Shown piece by piece: positions 1,315-29,970 of a stretch of DNA of 64,000 nt. The notes beneath the pieces were generated by a model, which did no database searches, was not told the origin of the DNA, and was given only the letters and a program-made list of their open reading frames with translations. The first letter of the stretch is position 1. Each line of letters opens with the position of its first letter. This stretch comes from Diphasiastrum complanatum (lineage: Eukaryota > Streptophyta > Lycopodiopsida > Lycopodiales > Lycopodiaceae). The position numbers were made by a program, and so were the translations under genes. The stretch lies in NCBI GenBank assembly GCA_029204225.1, contig CM055095.1, positions 53,719,944-53,783,943 of the forward strand, written 5' to 3'.

Positions 1315-2180
1315 TGTGAAATTTTAGAGAAATAAACCAAGAATAGATCTAGATCAGATCCTCAAAAGGTATTGGAAGCTAGATTACTTGATCTACTAAT
1401 CAACCAATGATTAGATCTAGAATAAGATCAATTTTCCATCAAAAATCTAGCAAGAACAACAAGTAAATGATTAAACTTAAGACCTACTGCCTTCACACAT
1501 GTGAATAACAGTAACTATACGGACTTACAGCAGAGAGTGAGGTACATAAGTGTTAGAAAGCAATAGAACCATAAAATCACAACACAAATATGAGAATACT
1601 CAAGATATGCCTCCAAAACCAAGATCTTGTTTCATTGATTTCTCAAAGTGGATCCATCATGGATTAAATACAAAAATCATCATACTCTCTCTCTCTCTAA
1701 GACACTTCTAGCACGTGTGAGACAAGTCATAGTGCTTATCCATATCCACTTTGGCTAAGATTCCATCAATTTGCTACATCATCATTGGTGGCTAGTGTTG
1801 ACCTTCTAGACTCCTACAAATTAGGAGATAGGTCCTACAATCTAGGAGATTTGACTTTTGACTTGTATGAAAACTATATACAATGGATCTAAACTTTCTA
1901 TATGATATTTCACACATGGGAGACCACTCCTACCCATGTGATATAGCACTTTCTACCACTAGAATGGTGCCAAGTGGCATAATACTACTAAACTAGTTTT
2001 TGGCCAATTTAGCCACTAGTTTCCAAATCAAATGATATGTACAACCTATTTGATCTATCTAAATGACTTAGGCATAGATTTCACATGTGGGAACAGGCAC
2101 CACCATGTCTAATGATGATAGGTACAAGTCATTATGGTATTTACAAGATTTAACCAAGTTAGCTTTTGCCAATTTTAACA
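1315..2180 (-). repeat. 3' LTR of element NA-1
   Basis: Long terminal repeat of 866 bp, beginning TGTGAAATTTTAG and ending CCAATTTTAACA on the plus strand, so it has TG...CA ends. It matches 6124-6901 with many substitutions. It also carries roughly 85 bp (about 2030-2120) that the other copy lacks. Next to it, inside the element, is a minus-strand purine tract (TTTTGAGGAGGAG, about 2181-2193), the expected polypurine tract. It holds the motif TTCACACATGTGAA near 1492-1505. Confidence 0.85.
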
Positions 2181-2241
2181 CTCCTCCTCAAAACTAACTT
2201 GATACATCTATGGTACATCTATTTACAACACTTAAAACTGA

Positions 2242-2998
2242 TCATTGCAGGTTCATAGGTGTGAAGATTAGCCAATACGTTTGATGAAGATCCAAGATCA
2301 CCATATCTGATAGTGCCTCCTTGATGTTGACTTCTTTGATGAACTTGAGAGCTTTACACCACTTGATCACTTTTTCCATTGATTTGTTCCATCCTTGAAA
2401 CATATGGTTGATCCAAAAGCTCCTCCTCCTTAAAAATAGCTGCAGTTCCATGAGAAAATAAATATTCCTTCTTGACTCATAAGGATCACAAAGATCCAAC
2501 ATCATGTTACCAAGATCCCGAGAATTAGGCTCATCAACATTGGCAAGACTATGCATGCTATAATAACCAAGAGTTTGCATCATATCTTCATGCTTGATTT
2601 CCATGCTAATCTCAGATCTCATGAGGCTAAATACTTCACTATGTAGATAAGTATCCTTAGAGGATGATTCACTTACTCTCATAAAGAGTTTACAATTTGC
2701 CTCAATACATGAAAAAACACAAATTTTCACACTATGAGTGAACAAATCACTCTTGCTCTTGCAAGACTAAAGAGCATACATTTGATAAAATAACCATTTT
2801 CTTTCTAATTGATCTAAAATCAATTTCAAATCATTAAGAACATCAACTATGTTCTCAAGAGAGACATCATACTCAACTAGCATTGCTTTACTCCAACTTT
2901 GAGTTGCAAAAGTCTCACTAAAGCAAATTGATTCACCAAATGACATAAGAGAAGCAAGCATGAGATGTATACCACTTGAAATGTGCTGCTCTTTCCCT
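2242..2998 (-). pseudogene. NA-1 C-terminal module, copy 2
   Basis: Two minus-strand open stretches (2767-2961 and 2242-2745) together form a second copy of the module encoded at about 3000-3655. Shared landmarks, in order, are an LMS..E...CF.E.F..Q.W.KA.L block and then CKL.MR.SE.S...DTY.H..V.SL. Homology is also visible at DNA level around 2640-2720 versus 3330-3430. I recognise no known domain and see no protease, integrase or RT motif. Stops and frameshifts show decay. The position next to the PPT makes it the 3'-most coding part of the element. Confidence 0.55.
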
Positions 2999-4267
2999 TA
3001 AAATGTGAGCCATATGAGCTCAACCATGTCTCTTGATATTCTTCTTGGAATCATAACTTGAGAAGGACTCTCCTCCTCGATCGTTGGCACACTTGAACCT
3101 TGAGATGACTCCTCAAGGTCAACTTCTTGGTGCTCCTCCTTGATGGAAATCTGAGACCTCCATGTCTCAAAATGATCACAACAAACATGATTATATAATG
3201 TGCACTTCATATGATCATCAACATTACTTATGCTAAAACCATAAGTCCAAAAATCACCATAGCTTGGCATACTTTTTCTAATATTGAAATCAAAAAGCAT
3301 TTCCATCTCAATAAGGCTAACTACTTGCTTATGGATATAAGTGTCCACTTTGGATGTTTCACTTATTCTCATAAGAAGTTTACAACTTGCCTTTAAAATT
3401 AAAAATTTACAATTTTCAACATTGTGAATGAACACATCATTCATGATCTTATTTAAACCAAAAGAAAATACATCATGAAGACATTTCCATTTCCTTGTCT
3501 TTATACTCAATGTAAGTTTACAAGGAAAACATGCTTTGTCTAGTATTGCCTTAATCCACCTTTGAGATACAAAAATCTCTTCAAAGCAAAATAGTTCTTC
3601 ATAAGATGTCATGAGAGCATAAATGGAACTAGATTGCTCCTCCTTACTCTTGCTTGGTTTATCTTGGATCATAACAATAACTTTGAACTTATCCAAAGTT
3701 CCAGACAAAATGCATTCCAAGGACATGAAATAAATCCAAGTGACATTAATGAAAGTGAGATCTATCTTTGCATCTTGGACCAAAGGCACTTCCAAATAAA
3801 AACTTCAAAAGGTTTGAAATGTGTGGTGATGGACTTTTGAACACAAATCTTGTAAGTCCTTGTGAGACTCCAAGCCTCATGCATCTTTCCACAAAGGAAA
3901 CACCTTTCCTTGGATTTGACCTTCTTGCCTTTGCACTTTGAACTTGAAGCTCCATCCTTCACCTCAGCCCCCTTGCTTTGGTTCTCCTTGGATGAATTGG
4001 TCTTCATTTTGTAGCATCTTGAGACAAAATGATCTCTCTTGCCACAAAGGTTGCACTTGCCTCCAATAGGTTACCACCTATTGATGCCATGATGAGGAAG
4101 TAAAACCTTGTGATATGACTTTTAAAAATGTAATTTGTGACTCTCAAGAGACTAGATTTGAACACATTCAACAATCTAGAAGGATCTACACAAGATCTAG
4201 ACCACAAATTTCGAATCATATCTCTTTTCAACCTAGTCAAATGGAAACTAAGCTTTGCTTTGATCAC
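2998..4267 (-). pseudogene. NA-1 Gag-like zinc-knuckle region plus C-terminal module copy 1
   Basis: Reading the minus strand from 4267, a Gag-like zinc knuckle of form CX2CX4HX4C (CNLCGKRDHFVSRC, plus 4015-4060) is reached by joining the frames at 4004-4267 and 3762-4007. A Lys/Ser-rich linker and another Cys pair (CFLCGKMH) follow. The ORF at 2998-3795 then encodes the unrecognised C-terminal module: LMTSYEELFCFEE...QRW.KAIL, CKLLMRISETS..DTYIH, and a QEVDL acidic tail. No pol domain is present in the internal region, so the element appears non-autonomous. Frameshifts separate the blocks. Confidence 0.55.
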
Positions 4268-6110
4268 TAAGACAAAAGCACTCTAGAAAATCATAAAAAT
4301 AAGATCCAAACATTACTATTGGACTCAATAAACACCAACGACTCTTTCTATTGAGATTTGAAATGGATTTGAAAAGATTTGACACCAAGATTTTCCTTTT
4401 CTCTTGACTAGTTTACTCAACTTTTGAGATTCTTGAACAAAGGATGGGTTTTGTTTCAAACACATGAAAATAAAACTTAATCACTTATTTTGGATCACTC
4501 TTGGCCCAAATACTCTACCATTTTAAAGTTGGATTGAATTTAATTTGGTTTGACAACAAACTATACCACAAATTTTCACTTAAAAAAAGGATCTACTTGA
4601 TCACATAAACTTTACATGTATAGTTGATTCAAACACACAAAGATCAGATCCAATTACCCCTTTTGGAATCCCTCTTGACCCAAAGAATCTCACTCTTGAG
4701 ATTTGGAATGGATACAAAATGGTTTGATAACAATCTATGTCAATAATTTTTCACCAAGCTTAAAAATTTAACATCTAGAGATTCACAAAGATCCCAACCA
4801 TGTATGAAAACTCAAATATGGACTCCTCCATGTTCTAGACACCCAATGGGATAACAACTTGACCCTCACACTCTCACAAAGAAAGGTGAATAGAACCTAT
4901 TTGAGTTTCATACATACAATGTCAAATTTGCTCAAAAAAATTGAATTCATTCACCCCTATTGGACTCCACTAAGTACCAATGACTCTACCTCTTTAGAGT
5001 TGGAATGAAATTCAAATATTCAGAAATGTGATGCTTATTTCTCACTAAGATATGTGCTTACAAAGAGCTAATGCCACTTAGCAAGATTTGATCACCATGA
5101 AGCAGACAATATTTCCACCAAAGTAAAGAAATGAGTTACTAGATCTTGCCCTCTACAAAGGAAGGAACTCTTAGGATTTTTGGATCAAACACTACACATG
5201 TGACTCACACACCTCTATGACTCTCTTTCAAGCCAAACGAAACTCAACCCTTTGAGTAGGAGTGGAACAATGTGACTTAGATCTCAAAAATCACTTCTAG
5301 AACTCTCCAACAATGCTTATCACCTTGTATTGGTAGATTTTGCCTTTATGAGTGTTTGTGCTCTAGAAATCCACTTAAGATTTCACTTGGAGGACTTATT
5401 CAAGGGTGGATTCTATCACTTAGATGCTTCTAGTCTCAACCCTTTCACTCTTGAACACATCTAGAATGAAGGTACAATGGATTTCAATCTCTTCCCTTGC
5501 AAATCACTCCTTAATCTATGGTTTTTGGCAATCTTTCACTCTCAACTTTAATGCACACCCAAAGCATCTGAGAATCAAATTTAATGTACTGTAATAAAGC
5601 TTCAAATCATCTACATGATTGATCTATACCAAGAATAAATCAAAGGAATAGAAACAATGCATTAGAAAGCTTGAAAAATGCACTAGATTGACTAGTTTTG
5701 GGTGTATTAGACATTAAATGCACCAAAACTAAATTTTATTGCTCAGAACAGGTTTTGTATGGCCTCACACGTATGGGGAGTACACTTGAATCGCACAACA
5801 ATATTTGGTACAAATATAATGATTCTATCTATCCATTCAAACTCGCTACCTCAAGATTAGCTAGTTTCCAAAAACTTGCTAGTTTGGGTGTATGAGTAAG
5901 ATATAGCATCAAAATGAAAAATATAGCTCCAAAACTAGTACTGTATAGACTCACACGTGTGAAAAGTACCCCTGCAGGCCACAACCAAGTTTGATGCACA
6001 AATATCAAGGCTAACTAATCTTCAAACTCGCCCACTCAAGATTAGTAAGTTTTCTCAAAAACTTGCCAATCTGGGTGTTGTTTAGATCAATGCTTCAATC
6101 TCTTGTACTT
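4268..6110 (-). repeat. NA-1 long 5' leader with degenerate tandem units
   Basis: About 1.84 kb between PBS and the first gag-like ORF without convincing coding sequence. At least four related segments recur near 4316, 4488, 4660 and 4957. Each has a TTGGA(C/T)TC...CCAA.GACTCTACC...GAG.TTGGAATG-like core, and the first three are about 170 bp apart. The end near the PBS (about 5890-6110) matches the leader of the related element at 18426-18775. Confidence 0.5.
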
Positions 6111-6123
6111 GGCTCTGATACCA
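6111..6123 (-). other. NA-1 primer binding site (initiator tRNA-Met type)
   Basis: On the minus strand, TGGTATCAGAGCC directly follows the LTR end (...TTTCACA). This is the usual plant copia PBS, complementary to the 3' end of initiator tRNA-Met. It fixes the element's orientation as minus. Confidence 0.85.
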
Positions 6124-6901
6124 TGTGAAATTTTAGAGAAATAAAGACCAAGAATGGATCTAGATCAGATCCTCGAGAGGTGTTGAAAGCTAGATTCTTG
6201 ATCTACTAATCAACCAATGATTAGATCTAGAATAAGATCAATTTCCCATCAAAAATCTAGCAAGAACAACAAGCAAATGATTAAACTTAAGACCTACTGC
6301 CTTCACACGTGTGAATAACAGTAACTGTATGGACTTACAGTAGGAGTGAAGTACATAAGTGTTAGAAAGCAATAGAACCATAAAATCACAACACAAATAT
6401 GAGAATACTCAAGATATGCCTCCAAAACCAAGATCTTGCTTCATTGATTTCTCAAAGTGGATCCATCATGGATTAAATACAAAAATCATCATAATCTCTC
6501 TCTAATCCACTTCCAGCACATGTGAGACAAGTCATAGTGCTTATCCATATCCACTTTGGCTAAGATTCCATTAATTTGCCAAATCATCATTGGTGGCGAG
6601 TGTTGACCTTCTAGATTCCTACAAATTAGGAGATAGGTCCTACAATCTAGGAGATTTGACTTTTGACTTGTATGAAAACTATATACAATGGATCTGAACA
6701 TTCTATATGATATTTCACACGTGGGAGACCACTCCTACCCATGTGATATAGCATTTTCTACCACTAGAATGGTGCCAAGTGGCATAATACTACTAAACTA
6801 GTTTTTGGCCAATTTAGCACTAGTTTCCAAATTAAACGATAGGTACAAGTCATTATGGTATTCACAAGATTTAACCAAGTTAGCTTTTGCCAATTTTAAC
6901 A
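6124..6901 (-). repeat. 5' LTR of element NA-1
   Basis: 778-bp partner of the LTR at 1315-2180, in the same orientation, with TG...CA ends. It lacks about 85 bp near its right end. Flanks are ATTCT (1310-1314) and ATTTT (6902-6906), a 5-bp target duplication with one mismatch. A perfect 14-bp palindrome, TTCACACGTGTGAA, lies at 6302-6315. Its many differences from the other LTR imply an old insertion. Confidence 0.85.
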
Positions 6902-6984
6902 ATTTTGTCAAGACAAAGCATGTGTTAGACCTTGTACATAGCGATTTTTGTGGTCCAATGCCAACTTCATCCTCATTCCATCTA
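6902..6984 (+). pseudogene. Copia-1 integrase fragment after the NA-1 insertion
   Basis: Reading resumes as ...FVKTKHVLDLVHSDFCGPMPT, the integrase zinc-finger/core junction (LVHSD.CGPM) that should follow the KFPRTHS sequence ending at 1314. This confirms that NA-1 sits inside Copia-1. It stops abruptly where a different copia begins. Confidence 0.7.
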
Positions 6985-7454
6985 TTACCAAGAATTTACT
7001 TAGTGTGAGTCAAGTAAAAGACAAGGGAAGTTGTTCAAACTAGATGCTTGTGTTATTGCTAACCAAGTTGGATGTGTTGCAAGAGAGCAAATATCTATTC
7101 AAGAGGTTTCGCATAAAAGGATGGGGCACCTCAACTTCAAGTCATTGGAGGTAATGGCTAGGATGCAAGTTGTGATTATGGTCTTCCAAGTTCCTTAAGT
7201 AGCATCAATCATGTTTGTGAGTCTTGTGCTTTGTCAAAGCCACATAGAATACCTTATACTAGATTTACATCTAGATCTACAAAGCCTTTTCAAATTGTAC
7301 ATTCGGATGTTCATGGAATTACTACAATTAGCAATAGTAGAGCTAAGAAGTATGTAAGTTTCATCGATGATTTTAGTAGATTTTGTTGCATCTATCTACT
7401 AAAGAGCAAAGATGAAGTGTATGATGTCTTTGTTAGGTTCAAGAATGCAAGGTA
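6985..7454 (+). pseudogene. Copia-2 GAG-pre-integrase and integrase N-terminal fragment
   Basis: This opens with a NLLSVSQVK-like stretch, then HKRMGHLNFKSLE (the GAG-pre-integrase HR.GH motif). Next come CESCALSKPHR...F and IVHSDVHG, followed by KKYVSFIDDFSRF, which contains the first catalytic-core Asp region. At about 7445 the sequence jumps straight into the RT domain, removing the rest of integrase. Several frameshifts are present. It is related to the copia at 42257-45258. Confidence 0.75.
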
Positions 7455-8161
7455 GAACCAAGTGGTATGAGGCTATGAAGCAAGAATATGATGCATTGAT
7501 CACCAACCATATTTGGGAGCTTGTGGATCCTCCATCCAACAAGCATATTATTGGTTGCAAGTGGGTATTTCGAATCAAGTACAACAAGATGGCACCATAA
7601 ACAAGTACAAGGCAAAATTATGTGCAAAGGGATTTGTTCGAATCCATGGACTTGATTATGAAGAGACCTTTGCACTCGTGGCGGAGATGGTGACAATAAG
7701 AATCATCATATCTATTGCTTGCTATTTCAAATGGAGGGTATTCCAATTGTATGTTTTCAATGCATTTCTCAATGGATATCTTGAAGATAAAATATATATG
7801 GAACAACCTCAAGGATTCATCAAGGATGAATCAAAAGTGTGCTTGCTATTCAAAAGTCTTTATGGACTCAAGCAAGCACCAAGATCTTGGTGTAATAGAC
7901 TCAACTCTTTTCGTATCTCACTAGGATTTATCCTAAGTGACTATGATCCTTCTATATATCTAAAGTTTGTTGCTAGTGATCTTGGCATTCTTATCATCTA
8001 TGTAGATGACATTATCCTTTGTGGAAGTTGTATCAAATTAGTTTAAAGCTGCACTTGGAAATGAGTTTAAATCTAGGAGAGATCCATTATATCTTAGGCC
8101 TAGATATTGACTTTCATGATGATTATGCTTTTATATGTCAATCTAGATATGATCTATCTAT
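7455..8161 (+). pseudogene. Copia-2 reverse transcriptase (part 1)
   Basis: Ty1/copia RT domain: EAMKQEYDAL..N.IWELVDPP, GCKWVFRIKYN, LCAKGF...GLDYEETFA, then NAFLNGYLE...YMEQPQGF, SLYGLKQAPRSW and the catalytic IYVDDII box near 7999-8016. Frameshifts lie near 7590 and 8045, and the MVTIRI region carries substitutions. Reading reaches YAFICQSRYDLS and is then cut by the non-autonomous element at 8162; it resumes at 13548. Confidence 0.85.
8157..8161. other. Target-site duplication TCTAT (left)
   Basis: The 5-bp direct repeat TCTAT immediately precedes the LTR at 8162 and recurs at 13548-13552 right after the other LTR. This is the expected integrase footprint, and the host copia reading frame continues across it. 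Confidence 0.95.
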
Positions 8162-8808
8162 TGTGAAAAATACAGATCCTAAGTGGATCTAAACTCCAAG
8201 ATCATTGGCTTGAATGCTTGCACTCCAAACTACATAAGCTAGGAATTGGCAACACATTCTATGCTACCTAGAATGCAAAGAACTTGATCAAAAAGCATTT
8301 ATCACAAATGGAAACTTCCATAAACATCAAGTGCGGCCCAAAATAGCATTATACAGTCCATAATACATCAGCCTACCACTTTTGGAAAGCACCTAAGATC
8401 ATACACACAAAGCTTGAACTCAATCACTACACAATGCCAACAATGGAAGGAGAACCCAATAGAAAAATCTCTCATTAAGCAAATGAATACAATGGATCTG
8501 CTCCAACCTGTTTCTCCACGGCCTACCTGCTATATATAGCTGAGAGAGATGACTCTCTCTCCTCTCTCTAGACCCTCCTTACCTAAAATATGCCCTATAT
8601 AGGTAAAATTGGCATATATGTCCAAAATACATGAAAATGGACTCATTTCGAAGGTCTTGAAATTTGACACTTCTTCATACTGAAAAAATACACTTACTAA
8701 AAATATCTAGACCTGTTTCACACGTGTGAAAAGTCAGATCCTAAACTATGTGCCATTTTTAGCAATTTTGGCCTAAAACTAGACAAGGAAATGTTGACAA
8801 TTTTCACA
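8162..8808 (-). repeat. 3' LTR of TR-GAG-like element
   Basis: 647-bp LTR with ends TGTGAAAA...TTTTCACA. By eye it is identical to 12901-13547 except for one A/G difference near 8661. A TATATATA-containing stretch lies near 8531-8538, possibly a promoter element. It carries the 16-bp perfect palindrome TTTCACACGTGTGAAA at 8716-8731. The near-identity of the two LTRs implies a recent insertion. Confidence 0.95.
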
Positions 8809-8821
8809 CTCCCTCTTCAAC
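8809..8821 (-). other. Polypurine tract of TR-GAG-like element
   Basis: On the minus strand a purine-rich GTTGAAGAGGGAG lies directly upstream of the 3' LTR and directly downstream of the ORF stop codon. This is the expected plus-strand priming site. The copia at 14706 has nearly the same sequence next to its LTR. Confidence 0.85.
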
Positions 8822-11800
8822 TTAACTTGCTAGTTTTACAACACTACTTTGTTCCAACTTAAGAATGATCTCCATCATCAGAATAGATCTCTTCTCAAGG
8901 ATCCTAATATGTACAAAATAGGACACAACATAATTGATATAGATAATAGTGTCCATATAGGATGCTTCACTATTTCTTACATCAATTTTACATAGAATCA
9001 TAAAAATGGTACATGTAAAAGAACATAGAATCTCAATTAATGAATTCCTCCATGTATCCATCTCTGGTTTCTCTGTAAAATAGCAGCAAACAGGTTGTAA
9101 ATGAAAGTGATCAACAAGTGTTTGCATGCCTCCTCCACATTTCACTATACATATAGTGAATGCAACATGTATCTCCATGAATGAACTTCCATCACCACCT
9201 TGCCTTTGTAGATCTTCAATCCATGAAAGCCTTTGAGTGAATGAATGCCAAAAAGATGTGTTCCCTACTCCATTTGAATGACCAAAACCTGAACTTGAAA
9301 TACTTGAAGTACCTCCACAAGATTTGCACACAACGCTTGATCCTACAATGTCAACAAGTTGCCAATTTGCCAACACTAGAATACTAGATCTTGAACTTTG
9401 TTCAAAAGAAAACATATTGACCACTTCAATACCTTTCAAGATCTGAATGAATTCATGTACTTGATCATACAAACCAGCAATGATAACTATTCCATCTCCA
9501 AGATCCAAAGGATGCAAAACTATGGAACTAGTTTTATTGAAATTTGACAATTTCAACACATTGACATAACAATGTTCATACATGAGATTAGGCAAGTGAG
9601 GTAGAGTAAGAAGACACTTCCTTGCAGCTCCAAAGACCTTACTTGAACCTTCAAGAACCTGTAAAAACAGATCCAAAATGCCTTGACCATTTGTCTCTTC
9701 TTTGATGCTTTTCACTAGCTTCGAATTGCCACTTGTCTCTTGGTGTTGATGAAGCAATCCAAGATCAACCTCTTGATCTTCCAATAAGACATCAAAGATC
9801 TTGCATATGTGAACATCTTCAGATCTGAAACTCTGAAGATACTCCCTCTCAAACACATGATTAAGATCCCACAAGATCTCATCAATGCTCAAATTTGACC
9901 CTTCACTATAGTTAGTGAAAACAATGCCACCATCATAAACCAAAAGATAGATTCCAACATTTCTATTTAACATGAAGTAGAGTAGGTGAAGATGAGTATC
10001 AAACCTAATCAAAACAGCCCTCTTGAGTTCATAACAAACCTCAATAAGCTCACCAATGATATCTCCCTTGCCTTGAAGAAGTTGCCACTTGAGTTGCTCC
10101 ATGTAGTCTTCTTCAACCAACCTTTTGCCATCTTGACCATGAATGAACAATCCACCACAATCATAGAATGCTTTGAGTTGATGAAGAGATGTTAGATCCA
10201 TGCTTTGGATCTTCCCAAGAACCACTCTTCCATTGCCCTTTCCTTCACAAGACTCCCTCTTAATGCTAGCACCACAAAAGTTAGAAACCTCCCTCTTGAT
10301 AGTTGCACCATAAGAAGTAGAAGACTCTTGAATATTAGAAGCCAAGAAAAGAATCCTTAGTACCTTCAACATAAGAGTGATTGAAGTACTCTCTCTTTTC
10401 AAACATGAACTTCTACTCAATGATTTAGGTAATGAGTCATATGATAATGATTCTTCCTCACTATCGTTCATAAAAACATCATTCAAAGTACATCCTACTT
10501 TGAACACTTCACATACTTCTCTTCCTTTTGACTTGTGATCTCCCTCACCAAGTCTCATGATAGAAACCTTTGATCTACTCTTTTTATGAAGAAATGTGAC
10601 ACCACTTGTTGCACAAATGACTTTATCACAAAAAGATGTAAAAGAACCATTTCCTTCAAGCATGCTCAAAGCACCATCATCTTTTCCCACATGATTACAT
10701 ACATCAATATGAAAAGAATTAGAAGAACAACCATCTTCTTGCAAAGAATGACACTTAGCATCTCCATCTTTTTCCATATGAACAAACAAGTCATTAGCAA
10801 CAATCACTTCCAAAGAAGAATCTTCATCAACTCCATTGATGAAGTTAGCTCCTTCCTTACCTTTTCCATTTTTGCACTTGCCATCTAGTTCCATTGAAGA
10901 GCCACCAAGACTTGAAAATCTATGAGTAGAAGAGTTCAAACATGATACTAATTTAGCACCACATGACTCCATTTGACTAGTAGGTAGCACTAGTCCATCT
11001 TCAAGATCCAATGGATCCAAAAAATTGACCATAGATTCACCAAAGCTTGCCAAGTTAGCACAACAATTATCATCTCCAAGAAGTACATTAGATCTCAACC
11101 TAGATCTAGCATTTTGTTTCTTATGGCATTCATTTGCAAAATGTCCTTTCACTCCACAATAAAAACATTTGAACTTGGACTTATCTTGCTTCCTACTTTG
11201 CAAAGAAGAAGAATGCTTTCCATGCTCCAAACTACCTTGCTTGGACCACTTGCCTTTGAACTTGCCCTTTGTGAAAAGAGCTTCTTCATCTCCACCTTGT
11301 GTTGATGCACCACCACCTTTGGCTTGCAACCTATGCTCTTCAGCCACCAAGATCTCTTGCAAGTCATTGACACTTGGCAAGGACTTTTGTATAGCAAAGC
11401 ATTGTACAAGGTTAGAATGTTCATCAAGCAAACCATTCAACATGACTTGAACTAGTTCCCCATCCTTTATGCTTTCATCTATGCATGCTAGATCATCATT
11501 CAAGGATTTAACCTTCAAGACAAATGAATGTGCACTCTCTCCCTCTCTTTGACAACTTTGGAAGATTTGCCTTCTTAGGGTGAGAACCCTAGATGTGGAT
11601 TTGGACTCATAGATCTTCTTCAAAGCATTCCATGCTTCACTTGAAGAAGTACATTTACCAACTTCTTTAAGAAGTTCATTGGTAACATTCATCTTTATGA
11701 TATGTAAGGCTCTTTTAGCCCTTCTATCAAAATTTAGTTGCTCTTGAAGAATTAGAGGTCTTTCTTCAATTCCCACAACTATATCCATTAGCTCATTCAA

Positions 11801-11896
11801 CTCTAGTAAAGACTCCATCCTCACTTTCCAAGTTGAATAGTTTGTAGAGTTTAACCTCTCTTTAGCTTCCAACATGATTCCACCATTGGATGTCAT
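8822..11896 (-). CDS. Gag with very long unknown C-terminal region; sole ORF of a pol-less LTR element
   Basis: Intact 1024-codon reading frame from the ATG at 11896 (MTSNGG...); the frame is open 22 codons further upstream, but without an ATG. Residues ~10-170 are a copia Gag of the UBN2 type (STNYSTWK..ME, SEAWNALKKIYES, TLRRQIF, LVQVMLNG). At ~243-256 lies a perfect zinc knuckle, CFYCGVKGHFANEC. From there about 770 residues have no family I recognise. I see no DSG protease, DDE integrase or YVDD RT motif. Near the C terminus, CKIDVRNSEASYMDT resembles a motif found twice in NA-1 (2242-3795). Two internal segments, PLDLEDGLVLP and PLDLGDGIVII, look like an internal duplication. With LTRs, PBS and PPT intact, the protein probably supplies Gag while RT and integrase come from a related copia. 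This is inference; expression is unknown. Confidence 0.8.
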   Translation of the reverse strand: MTSNGGIMLEAKERLNSTNYSTWKVRMESLLELNELMDIVVGIEERPLILQEQLNFDRRAKRALHIIKMNVTNELLKEVGKCTSSSEAWNALKKIYESKSTSRVLTLRRQIFQSCQREGESAHSFVLKVKSLNDDLACIDESIKDGELVQVMLNGLLDEHSNLVQCFAIQKSLPSVNDLQEILVAEEHRLQAKGGGASTQGGDEEALFTKGKFKGKWSKQGSLEHGKHSSSLQSRKQDKSKFKCFYCGVKGHFANECHKKQNARSRLRSNVLLGDDNCCANLASFGESMVNFLDPLDLEDGLVLPTSQMESCGAKLVSCLNSSTHRFSSLGGSSMELDGKCKNGKGKEGANFINGVDEDSSLEVIVANDLFVHMEKDGDAKCHSLQEDGCSSNSFHIDVCNHVGKDDGALSMLEGNGSFTSFCDKVICATSGVTFLHKKSRSKVSIMRLGEGDHKSKGREVCEVFKVGCTLNDVFMNDSEEESLSYDSLPKSLSRSSCLKRESTSITLMLKVLRILFLASNIQESSTSYGATIKREVSNFCGASIKRESCEGKGNGRVVLGKIQSMDLTSLHQLKAFYDCGGLFIHGQDGKRLVEEDYMEQLKWQLLQGKGDIIGELIEVCYELKRAVLIRFDTHLHLLYFMLNRNVGIYLLVYDGGIVFTNYSEGSNLSIDEILWDLNHVFEREYLQSFRSEDVHICKIFDVLLEDQEVDLGLLHQHQETSGNSKLVKSIKEETNGQGILDLFLQVLEGSSKVFGAARKCLLTLPHLPNLMYEHCYVNVLKLSNFNKTSSIVLHPLDLGDGIVIIAGLYDQVHEFIQILKGIEVVNMFSFEQSSRSSILVLANWQLVDIVGSSVVCKSCGGTSSISSSGFGHSNGVGNTSFWHSFTQRLSWIEDLQRQGGDGSSFMEIHVAFTICIVKCGGGMQTLVDHFHLQPVCCYFTEKPEMDTWRNSLIEILCSFTCTIFMILCKIDVRNSEASYMDTIIYINYVVSYFVHIRILEKRSILMMEIILKLEQSSVVKLAS

Positions 11897-12888
11897 GATG
11901 CTAAAATCTTCTTGTGTCCTTAGGCTCTGTTCTAATGCACCTAGCACTCTCCTTTCTCTCAATAAATGAAGAAGGAGAAGATCTTAAAAGATTTAGAACC
12001 CTAAATGACCTCTATCTTGAAACTATTTGGCTTTCAAGCATAGAAAGGAAGATTGAAACACATGCAACACTTTGCACACACTAAGAATGGATTACAAACT
12101 CAAACCAACCTGAACACACTCTTGCTTAAGCTCTCAAACTTTCCAGCAAGTGACCAAATCAAGTTATGGTGTGAAGAGTTACTTGCATTCTTAGAAAATA
12201 CCCAAAACTAGGATGCCAAAATTACCTAGTAATGAACAAACTTGATCAACATATGATCACCACACTAAGATATTGATTCAACCTGTAAAACCACATGTAA
12301 ACCACACTTCTAAAAGTTTATAAACTCCAGCAAGTGATAAATACAAGATTTAGAGGTGAATGAATGAGCACACTTAGTGAATCACAAGACTAGCTTCACT
12401 ATCTTGTCAAAATTTGGTGTTTAGATGTAGATCTAAGATCACTTCACATGAGAATGTTCCTCAACCTGTTAAGAACCTGAAAACACACTTGCATAATGGT
12501 TAACACCTTCCAGCAAATGCTCCAATCAAATTACATAAGGAGAGTTACTTACATGCTCAACAAAGTACACCAAAATTTATGCCAAAATTGATGACAATCT
12601 TTACAATATGCTCTTCACAATGGAGCTTACAATATGTTCACCCAAAAAAGGGGATCTTTCATCCAAATGGGAGCTTTGCTCAGCCTTTAGGAGAATTACA
12701 ACTCACTCAAAAGAGCATTTGTCATCCACTTAAGGAGAAGTTTCATCCACTTAAGGAGAGTGTTCATCCAAGAATGGAGATTGTCAACAATAGGATTGAA
12801 AAGAACATTGTTAGTATTGAATATGCACAAGCCTCACAATCACAAATGATTAGGTGTTATGATCTGATCCAAAATAGTTTCTTTTCAG
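11897..12888 (-). repeat. 5' leader of TR-GAG-like element with three ~183-bp tandem units
   Basis: Non-coding stretch of about 1 kb between PBS and ATG. Three diverged units carry the landmark CCAGCAA(G/A) at about 12143, 12327 and 12510, spaced 183-184 bp. Each has AACCTG...CACACTT before the landmark, and the outer two share GAGTTACTT..AT and ATGCCAAAATT after it. A short 21-bp duplication (CATCCACTTAAGGAGA) sits near 12715-12755. It may hold packaging or dimerisation signals; that is speculation. Confidence 0.6.
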
Positions 12889-12900
12889 GCTCTGATACCA
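12889..12900 (-). other. Primer binding site of TR-GAG-like element
   Basis: Minus-strand TGGTATCAGAGC immediately follows the 5' LTR end (...TTTTTCACA). It is the initiator tRNA-Met type used by plant copia elements and is unmutated. Confidence 0.95.
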
Positions 12901-13547
12901 TGTGAAAAATACAGATCCTAAGTGGATCTAAACTCCAAGATCATTGGCTTGAATGCTTGCACTCCAAACTACATAAGCTAGGAATTGGCAACACATTCTA
13001 TGCTACCTAGAATGCAAAGAACTTGATCAAAAAGCATTTATCACAAATGGAAACTTCCATAAACATCAAGTGCGGCCCAAAATAGCATTATACAGTCCAT
13101 AATACATCAGCCTACCACTTTTGGAAAGCACCTAAGATCATACACACAAAGCTTGAACTCAATCACTACACAATGCCAACAATGGAAGGAGAACCCAATA
13201 GAAAAATCTCTCATTAAGCAAATGAATACAATGGATCTGCTCCAACCTGTTTCTCCACGGCCTACCTGCTATATATAGCTGAGAGAGATGACTCTCTCTC
13301 CTCTCTCTAGACCCTCCTTACCTAAAATATGCCCTATATAGGTAAAATTGGCATATATGTCCAAAATACATGAAAATGGACTCATTTCGAAGGTCTTGAA
13401 GTTTGACACTTCTTCATACTGAAAAAATACACTTACTAAAAATATCTAGACCTGTTTCACACGTGTGAAAAGTCAGATCCTAAACTATGTGCCATTTTTA
13501 GCAATTTTGGCCTAAAACTAGACAAGGAAATGTTGACAATTTTCACA
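12901..13547 (-). repeat. 5' LTR of TR-GAG-like element
   Basis: 647-bp partner of 8162-8808, with the same TGTGAAAA...TTTTCACA ends and the same palindrome at 13455-13470. The flank TCTAT (13548-13552) completes the target duplication. Confidence 0.95.
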
Positions 13548-14057
13548 TCTATGTTGAAAAAATTTCATATGGAAAGTTGTAAGAGCATTGATACATCACT
13601 GGAGCATATTGTTCTAATAAGGGAGATGAAAGATCCTTCGAGGACATCACCCTTTCTAGGAGTCTTGTTGGCTCCTTGATATGGCTTACTATCACTAGAC
13701 CCGACTTGAGCTATTGTGTGCACAAGTTGAGTCAATCTATGCAAGATCCAAAGATCCATCTTTGGAAGATGGCCAAGAGAGTGCTAAGGTACATATCTCA
13801 TACTCATGATTATGGTTTGCTTTATGAAAGTGAATATCTATCCATTATTGGCTACTCGGATTCAGATTTTGCTAGTGATAAGGTGGATCAAAAATCCACA
13901 AGTGCATATATTATATTTCTTGGAGGTAATCTCATATATTGGTTGTTTTAAAGCAAGATACTATATCTCTTTCTTCATGTGAGACCGAGTATAAAGCACT
14001 CACTACATCAACAAAAGAAGTGCTTTGGATCAAGAGGATATTATTGGAGCTAAAGTG
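13548..14057 (+). pseudogene. Copia-2 RT end and RNase H (part 2)
   Basis: The Copia-2 frame resumes after the insertion (MLKKFHME...) and enters the RT-RNase H connection: IWLTITRPDLSYCVHKLSQ, WKMAKRVLRYI, YSDSDFASD. After a frameshift at about 13950 come DTISLSSCE.EYKAL and EVLWIKR. At 14058 it is interrupted by the LTR of Copia-3, in the middle of the segment that in the 42-kb copia reads LMELKCIKEDD. Confidence 0.85.
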
Positions 14058-14705
14058 TGTGAAATAATTCAGATCATTGATGATCCAAATCCATAAAAGA
14101 TCTTTGGTTACAAAACAAGCTACTCCACCAATCTTGCCAATGTAGAAAAATCAGCATCTACACACAAAATAGAATGCTAACTCTAATAGAACTTGATCAA
14201 ACATGAATCAAAACATAAAGCACTATTGCTATTTGTACAAAACTAGCAAGCTACTGTATTTCACATGTGTGGATCCAAAAATAACAAATATAGATCATTC
14301 TACACATAGAATTGCAAGCAATCACAAGTATATTGCACCAATGGATAGTAGAACCCAAGAGAATCATGTATAAGCATGAAATGAGATAGAGAAGAGAGAA
14401 GATATGTCTCTCCATGAGTTACATCCTTTTATAACAGATCCAAACCCTATTTGGCCACTTGGCTTTTCCTCCAAAATGTAAACCCTACTATTTTTTTGGT
14501 CTAGATTCAATGTACCCAACATTTAAATTTGAATCTACTCAAACTCGACTTCTAAGTTTTCCACATTTTCAAAAAGTGTTTATTAAAATGAAATTTAGAC
14601 TAATTAACTGTGAAAAGTCAAACTTCAAGTCTAATATAAAGTTGTCCTCAACTTGCCAAATATAAAAATGTAGCAAATATGATCAAACTAGTTGAGTCTT
14701 TCACA
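14058..14705 (-). repeat. LTR of Copia-3
   Basis: 648-bp LTR, TGTGAAATAATTC...GAGTCTTTCACA on the plus strand. A PPT (minus strand AGTTGAAGAGGGAG) abuts it at 14706. It has a TTTCACATGTGTGG version of the recurrent palindrome near 14258. No partner LTR occurs in the window, so the element is truncated at its 5' side. Confidence 0.8.
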
Positions 14706-16575
14706 CTCCCTCTTCAACTAGTTTTAGCATGGACTTTGATAACACTTCAAGTGATGTCCTATGCTTCATGAACAAGTCCTTTCCCAATGCTTTGGTGAAG
14801 ATATCAGCTACACATTCCCTTAAGGACACATGTTGAAGCTCCACCTCCTTTGCAATGACTTGCTCTCTCACAAAATGATATTGCACCTCAATATGCTTGC
14901 TCCTAGCATGAGAGATAGGATTGGTTGCCAGCCTTTGAGCTGATTGATTGTCACAAAAGATGATTGGGTTCTCTGAAAAATCCAACAAGTGAAGATCCTT
15001 GATCATCCTCTTGATCCATACCATCTCCATTGTGCAATGTGTAAGAGCTTTGTACTCGGCCTCACTAGATGACAATGAGACAATGGCTTGTTTCTTCGAC
15101 ATCCATGATATAGCTCCATCAACTATGAGAATACAAGTAGAACTAATAGATGTCCTATCCATTACATCTCCAGCATAGTCCAAATCTGAAAATCCAGAAA
15201 TATTAGATGATGATCCCTCATATAATATGCCAAAATCTCGAGTTTCAATGATGTACCTCAAAACGCGTTTTCCTAGCTTCCAATGCTCCTCACTAGAATC
15301 TTGCATAAATTGACTCAATCTTCCAACACAATAGCTTAGATCAACTCTGGTAATGGTTAGATAGATGAGTGAGCCAACTAGCTTTCTATAAAGAGTAATG
15401 TCCTTGAAGGATCTTTCACTACCTCTTATAGTTAGATTTACATGATACTCCATAGGTGTATCAGTAACTATTGCATCTACCATATGAAGTCTTTCTAGAA
15501 TAGAATTAGCATTATTCTCTTGACAAATGAAAGTATATTGAGAAGATCTAATGAGTCCTATTCCCAAAATGTAATGCAAGTTTCCAAGATCATGCACCTC
15601 AGATTCCTTCTTAAGAGCACTCTTGATATCCTCCACATCTTAATTGTCTCCACCACTCAAGATCATATCATCCACATAGATTAGAAAAATGGTAACATCA
15701 TTTTCAGCAAACATATAATAAAGTGAATGATCATACTCACTCATAACAAATCCTTGAGAGAGTAAAAAAGTGTTAAGCTTAGCATACAAACTCCTTGGTG
15801 CTTGCTTAAGGCCCTTTGTAGTAGACACACATGGTTTGGCTTTGTTGATGAAATGTAGCTCTTGGGGTGCTCCATGTACATTTCTTCCTCAACATCACCA
15901 TTCAAGAATGCATCTATAATATCCATTTGCCATAGATCCCATCCATAAAGTGTAGCAAATGAGATGATGACTTGAATGCTTACCATCTTTGCCATGGGTG
16001 CAAAGGTCTCATCATAGTCAATCCCTTGTTCTTGAGCATATCCTTTTGCCACCAACCTTGTCTTGTACTTGTTGATAGATCCATCTTGGTTTGTCTTCAC
16101 CTTGAAGATCCATTTGCATTTGAATAGCTTTCTTGTCCTTAGGTAACTCCACCAATCTCCATGTTCCATTCTTCATAAGGGCTTGATACTCAAGATCCAT
16201 TGCTTTGGATCCACTCCTCTTCTTTCCTTGCTTCATCTACACTTGTAGGTTCATCAAAAGAGGTTAGGAAAGCAACATAATTTCCAAAAACTACTTGCTT
16301 GCCCTTTTCATCATATGTGAGCGTTGAAGGCATTTGTCTTTCGGTTGATGTTCTCCTTGGCTTTTGACTTGATGAAGGTCCATTATCATCACCATCTAAA
16401 GTAGGATCCTTTACGTCAATATCAATAATGTTAGATCCATCCAAATCATCATCAATAGTACTTGTAGACACTTTTGGAATGTTACCCTCATAAAAAATGA
16501 CATCTCTACCAAACAATCACTTTGTTAGTAGTAGGAACGTAAACCTTGTAGGCTTTACTAACCTCACTATGTATG
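14701..16575 (-). pseudogene. Copia-3 reverse transcriptase-RNase H, 5'-truncated
   Basis: Minus-strand pol C-terminal part. From right to left: KAYKVYVPTTNKV..RDVIFYEG, RTSTERQMPSTLTYDEKGKQV, a WYQ..KNGTW.LVELP-like region, WIFKVKTNQDGSINKYKTRLVAKGY..., NGDVEEEMYMEHP, and the catalytic IYVDDMILSGG. Then comes an intact 311-residue stretch (14701-15636) with RT end and RNase H: VGSLIYLTITRVDLSYCVG, SLSSSEAEYKAL, CDNQSA, and VADIFTKAL. Its TGA stop overlaps the LTR edge. Frameshifts lie near 15640, 15800, 16150 and 16510. It joins an opposite-strand copia end at 16572. Confidence 0.85.
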
Positions 16576-19550: not shown

Positions 19551-20480
19551 CTCGGGCCGCGTGTGGGATCCCATCCCCACCGCCTAGCCACCCACCATCA
19601 TTCCCCTTTAACCCCAAAAGGGCTGGTACCAGAGACAAGGGTACATTGTCTACAATGAGCTTATATGTGGGTCCTATTATAGTCTCCATTTGCTTATGGG
19701 ACAAAAATTCGCTCTTTTTGGTGCCTTTTTGGATGCAACCGCTTTGCGTGTAGCTTGCATCCTCCAACACCCCCACTCAAGCGAGCACAGGGCAAAGGAA
19801 ACCCCCACTTGCTCATTTAGGACCAGAACACTTGCTCTGATACCAACTCAGAGTTTGTGGGTAGCGGAGAGCAGTCCAGTAGATGATGTGGCACGTCGTG
19901 CGCGCCTGCGGGTCCCGTGCGAGATCCCATCTCCACTGCCTAGCCACCCGCCATCATTCCCCTTTAACCCCAAAAGGGCTGGTACCAGGGGACAAGGGTA
20001 CATTTTTTACAATGAGCTTATATGTGGGTTCTGTTATAGTCTCCATTTGCTTATGGGATGAATGCACTCTTTTTTGTGTCTTTTCGAACCCAGCCACTTT
20101 GTGCGTAGCTTGCATCCTCCAACACCCCCACTCAAGCGAGCACAGGGCGAAGGAAACCCCCACTTGCTCGTTCAAGACCAGAACACTTGCTTTGATACCA
20201 ACTCAAAATTTTGTCGGCAGCAAAGAGCGGTCCAGTAGACGATGTGGCGCGTCGTGCACGCCTGTGGGCCACGTGCGGGATCCCATCCCCACCGCCTAGC
20301 CACTCGCCATCATTCCCCTTTGAGCCCAAAAGGGCTGGTACCATGGAACAAGGGTACATTGTCTACAGTGAGCTTATATGTGGGTTCTGTTATAGTCTCC
20401 ATTTGTTTATGAGACAAATGCACTCTTTTTGGTGCCTTTTCGGACACAGCCGCTTTGTGCTTAGCTTGCATCCTCCAACA
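19551..20480 (-). mobile_element. Tandem TRIM array (LTR-internal-LTR-internal-LTR)
   Basis: Period of about 356 bp, 2.6 copies, more GC-rich than its surroundings. On the minus strand each LTR begins TGTTGGAGGATGCAAGC. LTR2 is 19856-20124 and LTR3 is 20212-20480, both 269 bp; LTR1 (to 19769) is missing about 60 bp at its outer end. Internal parts of about 86 bp (19770-19855 and 20125-20211) hold only a PBS (TTGGTATCAGAGCAAG, or its AAG variant) and a PPT-like GAGTGGGGG. No coding capacity. This is the arrangement of tandem terminal-repeat retrotransposons in miniature. Confidence 0.8.
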
Positions 20481-22545
20481 CATCCAAGTGTTCCAACTCC
20501 ATAAGATGTTTTGTCTTGGTAGAAGACATCAAATCTGGATCCATATGTGATTTTTCCATATAATAAGCCACCTTTGACTTGATCTCCTTGACTATTGAAG
20601 ACATAGATTTGAAATTGGAAACATGCAACTTCCTATGCCATACTTCCTCCTTGGAAACACAAGTCATCAATGCAACATCACATGTACTTGCATGCTCATG
20701 CACATCTAACTTGAAAATGCCTCCATATCTAGGATCTCATCTCCTTTCTTTATAAAACAATTATTGACATCGAAATCCACTTCAAAACCATCATCAAATA
20801 GCTTTCCAACACTAATCACATTCTTTGTGAGATTAGGAACATAAAATGCATTGGAAAGTGATAAACTCATAGAAGATGCAAAATTCAAGGAACAAATTCC
20901 AACTCCTTCAATTGAACATGCATTACCAACAGTAAAAAGAACTCTTGGAGCAACTCATGTAAGTTGTGGCTCCACTATCAATATATCAAGATACATCATT
21001 AAAGGGTAAAGAGGAGAAACTAGACATCATGAAAGATGCTTCTCCTTCACTTGCATGTGAGTCTTCTATGATAAAATTAGCTTGATCTTCTTGAGTCTTC
21101 TTCTTGAAGATAGAAGAATGAGTTGAATCATCTTCTATCCTCCTTGGTCTTTGTCCTTTGATTTGTCCTTGGTGAAGGCTTGAGAAAATTTGTTCTTGCT
21201 CCTCCCTCTTGACTTGTCCTTGGCAAAGTGAGCTTTGCCATAACCACCATCTTACCTTGAAAGTGTGTCAATCTTTAGTAGCTTGTTTTTTTGCATGCAT
21301 TCTTCAGCAATAAGAACATCATGAAGAGTCTCCATAGATGGTAGCTTCTCCATGATAGATAAATTTGCACAAAATTTGAATACTATTTTCTAGGTCCATT
21401 AAGGACTACTTGAACAAGTTGACTATTCTCTACAGTATCACCTATACATGCTATCTCTCTGTGAAGATCTTTAACTCTCATTACAAAACTTGAAACACTT
21501 TCATCAACTCTTTGAAAACTAGAAAATATCTTATTTCTAAGAGTAAGAAGTCTTGATGTGATCTTTGCCTCAAAAATGTTCTTAAGGATTTCCCAAGCCT
21601 GCTTGGCTGAGTTGCATGGACTTATTTCTCTCCACAACTCATCAGAGATGTTTATCTTAATGATATGAAGAGAAATCCTTGCTCTCTTTTTGAACCTCTG
21701 AGCCTCATCACAAGCTTCATGTTATCTAGTTTCTCACTAGCTTCAAAGAGAAAATCTCCTATAGATGCCATGAATGTGAAGACTTCTTGTAATTGGACAA
21801 CAATATGTTTGAGCTTGTTTCTAACAAACTAAATGTTGCTACACTTCTCACTATAGGAATTTTCAGAGGTTGAACTACCAAATCTAATTTGGAATCTTGC
21901 AACTGTATTTGAGATAGGTCTCAAATATTCCACCAATACAATGCAAACTAGATCAACCTCTCAAAGTGAATTGGAGTATAGACAAATTTTGGTTCTTTCT
22001 TCTTTTGGCACGTGTTGAATGCTCAAAGACAACACTATTGACTCAAAAGAGCTCAAATTGTTTGAAGCAATGTGTTAAATGACTCAAAACTTTGTCTAGA
22101 TCTCGAGTTTGTTGAATTGGTATACTCAAAAAATGGATTTAAATGTGTTGCTTCTCTTTACAATAGGAACCAAAAACAATTAGGTATTCTACCAAATCCT
22201 ATGCAAAAACTTGCAACAGTTATGTGAGTTCTCACAACAGAAAATCAATCACTTTGAATTTGGAAAATAGACTCTTCTAGCTTTCCAACAAGCTATAATG
22301 TCACTACTTTGGATCTAACGTCAAGGAAATAGAATGAAATGAAGTACTCTGATTTTCACAAATGTGAAAAATCAGAATTTCGTACAACCTGTATTCAGAC
22401 CTGAAAGTATCAATTCTAACCTCATTCATCCAAAAACTGTTCAAGAATAAATAGCAGAAAAAGTGCTAAATAAACAACTTCCTAGCTTGAATTGTCACAA
22501 AACTCTTCATACACCTGATGTTAGTAGCATTCAAAGCATGGTATG
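20481..22545 (-). pseudogene. Copia-6 Gag-protease-pre-integrase fragment
   Basis: Decayed minus-strand copia. Reading right to left: gag near 21740-21383 (CNSAKQAWEILKNIFEAK, TLRNKIFSSFQR, LVQVVLNG). This is closely similar to the Gag of the element at 8162-13547. Then a protease/spacer piece (20706-20888, NVISVGKLFDDGFEVDF). Then GAG-pre-integrase (20461-20703, EEVWHRKLHVSNFKSM), ending at LMELEHLDV where the TRIM array abuts. Several frameshifts. About 21780-22545 is a leader without ORFs. It could represent the autonomous partner family of the pol-less elements. Confidence 0.7.
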
Positions 22546-22557
22546 GCTCTGATACCA
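22546..22557 (-). other. Copia-6 primer binding site
   Basis: Minus-strand TGGTATCAGAGC sits directly inside the LTR that starts at 22558. Initiator tRNA-Met type. Confidence 0.85.
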
Positions 22558-22940
22558 TGTGAAAAATCCAGCAACTTCACACGTGTGGGAAACCACAACA
22601 ATAATTGAATGATCTTTACCATGCTTTATGGTGGCACACAAATCACCTGTAGAGTAATACTACAATCTACTACAATCTACCAACAGATCTGAGGCTAGAG
22701 CACAATCTAGATGCTACAGATCAAAGCTTCATTAATTCCTCACAAATAGGGAAAGTACACAAGCAAAATAATATATGAAGAAGACACCAATCTTCAGTCA
22801 GGGAGAGAATACAATTACAAGCAAAATAGAATGAGATCCAATTCTGACATTATGACCTTATCAAAGCTTGATTCATCATTAGAAATGAATGAGAAGCATA
22901 TGTACATATATAGGAGAGCCTAAATTCGTGGTACTACTAG
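22558..22940 (-). repeat. Copia-6 5' LTR, truncated
   Basis: It starts TGTGAAAAATCCAGC on the plus strand, sharing its first ten bases with the LTR at 8162, and has TTCACACGTGTGG near 22575. It is lost at about 22940, where helicase-coding sequence begins without a TG...CA boundary. Confidence 0.65.
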
Positions 22941-22946
22941 CATTCA

Positions 22947-29563: not shown

Positions 29564-29970
29564 CTTGAATGTTTCCGCAAACGCTACCTCGACCGGCACA
29601 GATCTGAGAAAACTTGTTAGAACAATCTATTTCCAAAACATCACACAGCTGCTGATGTAACCATAGACATCCCTAAATAATTCCCCAAAAGCTACCTCTC
29701 TCGGCACAAATCTGAGAAAACTAGTTGATTCCAGAATATCATACAACTGCTTATCTAGTCGTAGGTATCCTGAATGATTCCGCGATTTGCAAAGATCTGA
29801 GAAAACTGGTCGATTCCAGAATATCATACAGCTGCCGATGGAATCATGACAGATCACATCTTGAAAGACTCCGCAAAAGCTACCTCGATCGGCACAAATC
29901 TGCGAAAACTGTTCAAGGCAATCAAGGAATCCAGAATATCATAGAACTGCTGATGCAAACGAGACAAATA
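29552..29970 (-). repeat. Four imperfect ~100-bp tandem copies covering the start of the 7TM gene
   Basis: Units share (plus strand) GT..AT..TGAATGATTCCGC, GCTACCTCGATCGGCACAAA, TCTGAGAAAACT and TTCCAGAATATCATACA-like parts. The first unit contains the gene's own ATG (29563). Equivalent positions upstream are ATG TCT ATG (29670), ATA (29768) and ATG TGA (29859), spaced 107, 98 and 91 bp. They probably lie in the 5' UTR or promoter. Confidence 0.75.
29641..29670 (-). promoter_or_regulatory. Candidate upstream ORF (9 codons) of the 7TM gene
   Basis: Minus-strand ATG at 29670 opens a short frame, M-S-M-V-T-S-A-A-V, then TGA at 29641-29643, about 77 nt before the main ATG. It derives from a tandem copy of the main start region. 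It acts as a uORF only if transcription starts upstream of 29670, which is not known. Confidence 0.35.

Follow-up and report, generated by a model that had tools for sequence, protein, structure and literature searches.

The 64,000-nucleotide stretch of Diphasiastrum complanatum DNA analysed here, which we call the window (contig CM055095.1, positions 53,719,944 to 53,783,943), carries on its minus strand, at 8162-13547, a long terminal repeat (LTR) retrotransposon of a young, high-copy family. The family is non-autonomous: it has a conserved Gag of its own and no detectable Pol, and the core of its primer binding site (PBS), its polypurine tract (PPT) and its LTR edge agree with those of Copia elements that have Pol. 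In its only open reading frame (ORF) Gag is followed by a long C-terminal part which, compared with one diverged relative, is free of stop codons though its residues change roughly as fast as expected under neutrality. In our view this is probably a Copia-type element that supplies Gag, borrows Pol and keeps its C-terminal frame open with no detectable constraint on the amino acids.

Architecture of the element and content of its ORF

The element is made up of the following features (coordinates in the window).

8157-8161, no strand: left copy of the TCTAT target site duplication, an exact duplication
8162-8808, minus: 3' LTR, 647 bp, one mismatch to the 5' LTR
8809-8821, minus: PPT, GTTGAAGAGGGAG, adjoining the 3' LTR (sequence inspection)
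8822-11896, minus: single ORF of 1024 amino acids (ATG at 11896, stop codon at 8822-8824)
8825-11110, minus: C-terminal part, residues 263-1024, without a known domain (domain and selection searches)
11111-11896, minus: Gag part, residues 1-262, a Copia-type Gag with a CCHC knuckle; strongly constrained and different between subfamilies
11897-12900, minus: 5' leader of 1004 nt, from the ATG to the 5' LTR
12888-12900, minus: PBS, TGGTATCAGAGCC, adjoining the 5' LTR (sequence inspection)
12901-13547, minus: 5' LTR, 647 bp (sequence inspection)
13548-13552, no strand: right copy of the TCTAT target site duplication, an exact duplication

An earlier note, made from the sequence alone, had described a young LTR element with 647-bp LTRs differing once, a TCTAT duplication, an intact PBS and PPT and a 1024-codon ORF with Gag, and all of this was borne out. 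The single LTR difference lies at 8662 (A) and 13401 (G). At an assumed 1.3e-8 substitutions per site per year, which may not be this plant's rate, one mismatch in 647 bp corresponds to about 60,000 years. The element is nested in an older plus-strand Copia, whose reverse transcriptase (RT) lies to the left at 7461-8046 and whose match to a related Copia resumes at 13548, to the right. The stop codon of the ORF is separated from the 3' LTR by 13 nt. The longest open frame in the internal region, of 1053 codons, compares with a maximum of 186 in 200 single-base shuffles, and the other five frames across the ORF contain 51-111 stops each; the 1024-codon ORF is therefore not due to chance.

Recognisable family similarity is limited to the first ~260 residues of the ORF. 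Pfam identified Retrotran_gag_2 at residues 27-193 (E=5e-22) and DUF4219 (E=2e-6), and a zf-CCHC knuckle at residues 243-257 falls just below the cut-off (E=0.002, 18.6 bits against 20.8). A Retrotran_gag_2 Gag with a CCHC knuckle, a feature of the Copia superfamily, is thus present. The Copia pol order is protease, integrase, RT and RNase H (PR-INT-RT-RH), and by Pfam and tblastn the element lacks this array. The earlier note was correct in seeing no protease, integrase or RT: Pfam gave none, and six Pol ORFs of the window searched against the element with tblastn reached E=0.43 at best. The same search gave no sign of a diverged known pol domain in the C-terminal part, a case that the note had listed as fatal to its own reading.

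The whole-ORF Pfam search returned no row after residue 260. Searched alone, residues 263-1024 gave no Pfam match above cut-off and nothing in PHROGs at E<=1; Pfam rows below the threshold, at E 0.12 and 0.042, were taken as chance. A PDB sequence search of the ORF listed the knuckle alone (E 0.13 and worse); a further PDB search gave a row outside it at E=1.4, which we also took as chance. IMG/VR contained no relative with the whole ORF, and 11 stretches in GTDB genomes fitted the C-terminal pattern, with 0 confirmed. The profile and structure searches that the earlier note had proposed for this part gave no family above cut-off and no fold match. Single-sequence AlphaFold2 models had a predicted local distance difference test score of 32 for residues 262-1024 and 42 for residues 560-830, and a PDB fold search of the latter found none at E<=0.001 (best 0.19), which for such a low-confidence model is not meaningful. 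We discarded a roadblock-like fold at residues 560-680, a by-eye impression that no search supported. An internal repeat within the C-terminal part was equalled in 3 of 200 shuffles. The frequency of T at third codon positions is 0.45 in the C-terminal part, 0.32 in Gag and 0.42 in a Copia integrase ORF of the window.

Within the leader, two ~117-nt repeats (12107-12223 and 12474-12589) are 73% identical. A stretch of ~170 nt directly after the PBS is absent from the window copy and present in the other copies, read directly in 19 of 20 loci and seen at the 20th, L025, as the same ~170-nt offset by BLAST. The jump in the window copy falls between two ATCAGAG repeats, as if plus-strand transfer had hit the second of them. 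In 19 loci (L009-L028) the stretch contains GTAAGTAT and later TTTCAG, which are splice-site-like by sequence. The 13th PBS base of the window copy, a C, agrees with what we take to be the initiator-tRNA sequence. Rfam at gathering scores gave no match.

Copies in the genome and selection on the ORF

Querying the plant's own assembly (1.74 Gb in 5176 contigs) with the LTR gave 41 matches, 40 of them scored, from 343 first-look candidates, and nearly all were 100% identical across the whole query. Besides the window copy 39 places were listed, and copies were read at 20 of them. The count of full-length copies that the earlier note had proposed can be given for these: the whole internal region stands beside a 647-bp LTR in 20/20, though this covers 20 of the 39 places. 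The 5' LTR stretch measures 115 bp in L026 and 394-414 bp in the other 19 loci, where it reaches the end of the sequence read. LTR pairs differ at 0 or 1 positions of an ungapped 394-bp stretch in 16 of the 20 copies. Ungapped differences number 11 in L011, 197 in L026 and 179 in L028, and the LTR end motif of L025 was not located; by BLAST the pairs are, with one gap each, 99.2% identical in L011 and 99.8% in L028, and in L025 they are 99.8% identical over 411 bp. The near-identical LTR pairs and the high copy number suggest recent movement.

The ORF is open, at 1024 or 1030 amino acids, in 15 of the 20 copies, and is broken by a 1-nt deletion in L013 and L018 and by a stop in L015, L016 and L022. 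The long C-terminal part is therefore really open in most of the copies read, as the earlier note had held, and is not a captured gene of the window copy alone, which disposes of another of the note's fatal cases.

Intact copies belong to two subfamilies that have LTR, leader and C-terminal part in common and differ in their Gag genes (dS, the synonymous divergence, about 1.1). Subfamily A (1024 amino acids) comprises the window copy, L009, L012, L019, L025 and L028; subfamily B (1030 amino acids) comprises ten copies. Among these 16 intact copies, with the five broken ones excluded, the fixed codon differences between A and B are 88 synonymous and 71 nonsynonymous in Gag and 0 in the C-terminal part. 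L009 and L010 differ at 10-19 positions per 60 nt over a span that starts 100-150 nt upstream of the ATG and ends near residue 249, in the knuckle, and at 35 of 78 columns where B carries 18 additional nt; outside this span they differ at 0-3 positions per 60 nt, except for 7 at residues 310-329. Apart from Gag, of which each subfamily has its own gene, the backbone is nearly identical, and a Gag swap through recombination is the simplest reading of this pattern.

Gag is strongly constrained. Over its first 205 codons the ratio of nonsynonymous to synonymous change (dN/dS) between the window copy and L010 is 0.10-0.19 by four methods; control pairs gave 0.10 and 0.18, the latter against the Gag at L026 1336-2163, and in two further control pairs dS was saturated. 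Identity between the A and B Gag genes at codon positions 1/2/3 is 0.87/0.88/0.63. Gag variants within subfamilies number 14 nonsynonymous, 17 synonymous and 1 stop, against 22.3, 7.2 and 2.5 expected; L018, with a possibly recombinant Gag, is counted among these copies.

For the C-terminal part the comparison of A with B is powerless (17 differences), and the test was made against an old fragment beside the young copy at L025, which we refer to as the L025 relative. After trimming 12 of 238 codons at edges, this comparison covers residues 701-805 and 875-995, or 226 of the 762 codons. Codon positions 1/2/3 show an identity of 0.69/0.66/0.70 and 70/76/67 differences, without an excess at the third position. 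The dN/dS was 1.04 by NG86, 1.01 by LWL85, 0.80 by YN00 and 0.96 by maximum likelihood, and a separate NG86 script gave 0.93 (bootstrap 0.64-1.37). Two wrong frames of the same alignment gave 0.66 and 0.67, and the right frame therefore shows no sign of purifying selection. Variants among 21 copies are 41 nonsynonymous, 10 synonymous and 2 stop, against neutral expectations of 38.1, 11.1 and 3.8.

Simulated stops on the window branch averaged 11.6, 20.1 and 27.1 when that branch was given a quarter, a half and three quarters of the divergence, and none is observed. Since ~20 stops would be expected and 0 of 500 runs at each setting were stop-free, neutrality does not explain the openness. The 259-codon ORF of the L025 relative likewise has 0 stops, where 4.7-8.2 are expected. 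Selection seems to act on the open frame rather than on the residues of the C-terminal part. The selected role that the earlier note had proposed for the protein of this part is weakened, with dN/dS at 0.80-1.04. The note had also said that generally broken copies with a dN/dS near 1 would refute it; the ratio is indeed near 1, whereas most copies are open.

Pol-bearing relatives and neighbouring elements

Relatives of the element in the window are listed below.

14058-14705, minus: 3' LTR (648 bp) of an older Pol-bearing Copia relative; its 3' half is homologous to the element LTR, about 60%
14701-15636, minus: ORF of the older Copia relative with the end of RT (RVT_2) and presumed RNase H, ending ...KLVEEGV at the PPT
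21344-21706, minus: decayed Gag relative, 47% at the amino acid level, downstream of an LTR end and PBS

The PBS core and the PPT/LTR edge are common to the element and its Pol-bearing Copia kin. PPT and LTR edge are identical at 21/21 nt to 14699-14719 of the RT/RNase H-bearing Copia. The LTR end and PBS at 22545-22571, upstream of the decayed Gag relative, match at 96% over 27 nt, and an integrase-like stretch at 20479-20951 follows that Gag. For 14701-15636 Pfam gave RVT_2 at E=3.8e-6 (27.1 bits, below the cut-off of 31.6); the RNase H label is our assumption from the Copia layout and from 53% identity to another Copia of the window. When the element LTR was aligned with 14058-14705, 0 of 200 dinucleotide shuffles did as well (z 8.9-10.8), with the 3' half alone alignable. 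Between the element LTR and 22558-23205 there is no similarity, with 188 of 200 shuffles as good.

At L025, the old fragment at 6814-7593 (minus) resembles residues 701-811 and 869-995 of the ORF, with 49% and 43% amino acid and 71-73% nucleotide identity. Overlapping it in another frame, 6540-6824 leads from the end of the C-terminal-like part into ...VADIFTKALGKDLFMKHRTSLGVLSKSMLKLVEEGV, as at window 14701-15636. Its last 70 residues are the Copia RNase H tail, a label that we again assume from the Copia layout, and end KLVEEGV at the PPT. The L025 relative, known from its 3' part, has a 3' LTR 84.9% identical to 14058-14705 over 648 columns. Because it keeps an RNase H tail and an LTR akin to 14058-14705, pol was probably replaced by the C-terminal sequence: within a Copia lineage that had Pol, this sequence seems to have displaced all of pol that precedes the RNase H tail. 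The window family no longer has that tail but keeps the PPT and LTR edge.

Two further Copia elements lie at L026, at 1336-2379 (plus) and 2425-4674 (minus), with Gags 61% and 41-57% identical to the element Gag. By eye we take the first to continue into protease and the second into PR-INT and RT, and it is possible that they are kin of a helper lineage.

The window also holds a second LTR element, E2 (1315-6848, minus), with LTRs 94.7% identical and the same PBS, apparently inserted in the same older Copia. Its CCHC-like motifs, seen by eye, are followed by ORFs at 2998-3795 and 2242-2745, which have no Pfam match above cut-off and hold two copies of one repeat (36% amino acid identity). Between these copies change is evenly spread, as in the C-terminal part (codon-position identity 0.59/0.61/0.59, dN/dS 0.84). 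From its sequence, E2 looks like another knuckle-plus-unknown non-autonomous element. A 55-nt stretch of the main element (8938-8992; protein CKIDVRNSEASYMDT) is 74.5% alike to 2740-2794 on the sense strand of E2, with a second E2 counterpart at 3430-3483 (71%). Its counterpart in the L025 relative shows the same 74.5% likeness to E2. We did not adopt homology of the E2 ORFs to the C-terminal part: the signal is weak, with an hmmsearch E of 0.002 for the stretch against a single target, and a reverse profile search ranked an E2 frame first at E=0.31, with the best control at 1.1. The LTRs of the two elements show no similarity, 84 of 200 shuffles being as good. Elsewhere in the window, tandem repeats of ~356 bp (19553-20481, parts 77-91% alike, up to three copies) lie beside Copia fragments, and a host gene at 28241-29599 (minus) encodes CAND6/7 N-terminal and GOST seven-transmembrane domains.

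Competing explanations and known systems

The RNA that an LTR element makes from its 5' LTR is both message and substrate for copying. Transcription from the 5' LTR would here yield a message for Gag with its extension, which would also serve as the copying template. Particles would be built from the element's own Gag, and copying and integration would be carried out by the enzymes of Pol-bearing Copia relatives. As to origin, a sequence without known family would have displaced pol from the stretch that separates Gag from the final ~70 RNase H residues, with the L025 relative as the one intermediate, and the RNase H tail would subsequently have been lost in the window family. We are least sure of what is selected, most likely translation to the 3' end and not a specific folded protein. 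The reason we prefer would be escape from decay elicited by a ~2.3-kb 3' untranslated region after a Gag stop; RNA length or stability may be another. That the 760-codon frame is selected open and its sequence is not, making it a translated spacer in place of pol that escapes, for example, nonsense-mediated decay, is a tentative proposal that we hold to be possible and by no means likely. The literature searched on nonsense-mediated decay offered no paper that bears directly on such an element.

Several points weigh against a Pol-borrowing element whose extension is open and unconstrained. In the loci read only one diverged C-terminal relative was found, and it is a dead copy with one frame change before its RNase H tail; decay of this copy in itself raises dN/dS. 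The bootstrap interval permits moderate constraint, or a mixture of constraint and diversifying selection. The stop simulation starts from present sequences, and when the L025 branch is given a quarter of the divergence, 4.7 stops are expected and 1.4% of runs are stop-free, which makes its openness less surprising. Recent stops in the C-terminal part are not below expectation either (2 seen, 3.0-3.8 expected). A Pol-bearing element that shares the family's LTR did not turn up; the LTR neighbourhoods read, 20 in all, are of the Gag type, and no search was aimed at a helper. The LTR at 14058-14705 matches that of the element in its 3' half only, with 72 bp at 74% under stricter scoring, and the LTR of the L025 relative aligns with the element LTR over 28 bp only. 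Because this likeness is partial, the 14058-14705 Copia and the L025 relative are kin and not a proven helper.

The main rival, which we consider rather unlikely, treats the C-terminal part as a functional protein that is joined to Gag and evolves fast under loose constraint or diversifying selection, with a role in the particle, in RNA selection or against silencing. The frame that is open in 15/20 copies and lacks all of its ~20 expected stops would fit such a protein, as would a codon-position composition typical of a coding region, a dN/dS interval that extends down to 0.64 and the 55-nt stretch (residues ~969-986), 74.5% alike to E2 here and in the L025 relative. Against it, the third codon position has no excess of change (70/76/67), variants among copies occur in neutral proportions, and neither a family above cut-off nor, with a low-confidence single-sequence model, a fold was matched.

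It is improbable that a host gene was captured by transduction across the whole family and that its residues are now drifting. The third-position T of 0.45, against 0.32 in Gag, and the apparent replacement of pol by foreign sequence in the L025 relative are in keeping with a capture, but the T of 0.42 in the window Copia integrase ORF is close to the same value. A decaying capture would be expected to gain stops, and none is present. No Pfam family above cut-off and no PDB entry better than E=1.4 outside the knuckle was found; host genes were not searched. An ordinary TR-GAG element with extra length by chance is very improbable: recent breakage is roughly neutral, at 2 C-terminal stops against 3.0-3.8 expected, but 762 codons have stayed open through substitutions expected to give ~20 stops, and do so in 15/20 copies while the other frames hold 51-111.

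Elements of comparable design are known from other plants. The closest is RLG_Quinta of wheat, studied with RLG_Cereba, which is non-autonomous and is described as having an ORF of GAG and a domain, DUF1, with 'no hint as to the function', and no RT or INT (PMC11302176). The statement of the earlier note that no family is known for the C-terminal part thus holds as far as no match above cut-off was found, but GAG with an unknown domain has this precedent. In the published description the second half of the Quinta LTR is conserved, PBS and LTR ends are common to a Pol-bearing partner, and two lineages, A and B, carry different GAG genes on a backbone more than 90% identical, a pattern that recurs in the two subfamilies here and is ascribed in Quinta to recombination, likely by template switching (PMC11302176). 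In contrast to that account, in which Quinta is Gypsy-type (RLG) and centromeric, the window element has a Copia-type Gag and no partner with identical LTR ends was found for it; its extension was tested and its residues look unconstrained, while DUF1 is compared here by its description (PMC11302176). The TR-GAG element AT5TE33540 (ATCOPIA63), reported as mobile in Arabidopsis ddm1, probably with the proteins of a related element, likewise has two LTRs flanking a single Gag ORF without Pol, but this ORF is a 562-residue GAG, whereas here a ~260-residue Gag is joined to 762 unmatched residues (PMC8704663). The 'semi-autonomous' RLG_Sabrina and RLG_WHAM also supply GAG, with protease in Sabrina_SA, and in other Sabrina variants unique coding segments replace GAG-Pro; these are Gypsy elements with another arrangement (PMC9744471). 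Plant aORFs share extra coding sequence of obscure origin near the 3' LTR, but most of those described occupy the interval from pol to the 3' LTR, in either orientation, whereas the extension here stands in pol's place and is fused in frame to Gag (PMC7264820, PMC11963269).

Gag-only TR-GAG elements, and GAG with an unknown domain as in RLG_Quinta, are already published (PMC8704663, PMC11302176). What is added here is a Copia-type case, which we did not find in print in the literature searched, together with a relative that has a replaced-pol tail, an exchange of Gag in a non-Gypsy family and a test for selection on the extension. The family offers a measured contrast between a strongly constrained Gag and an extension that is open but unconstrained where tested. 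What the extension does can thereby be put to the test, as selection may favour either a protein or an open frame as such, and if the latter is true, GAG-plus-DUF elements such as Quinta might have the same explanation.

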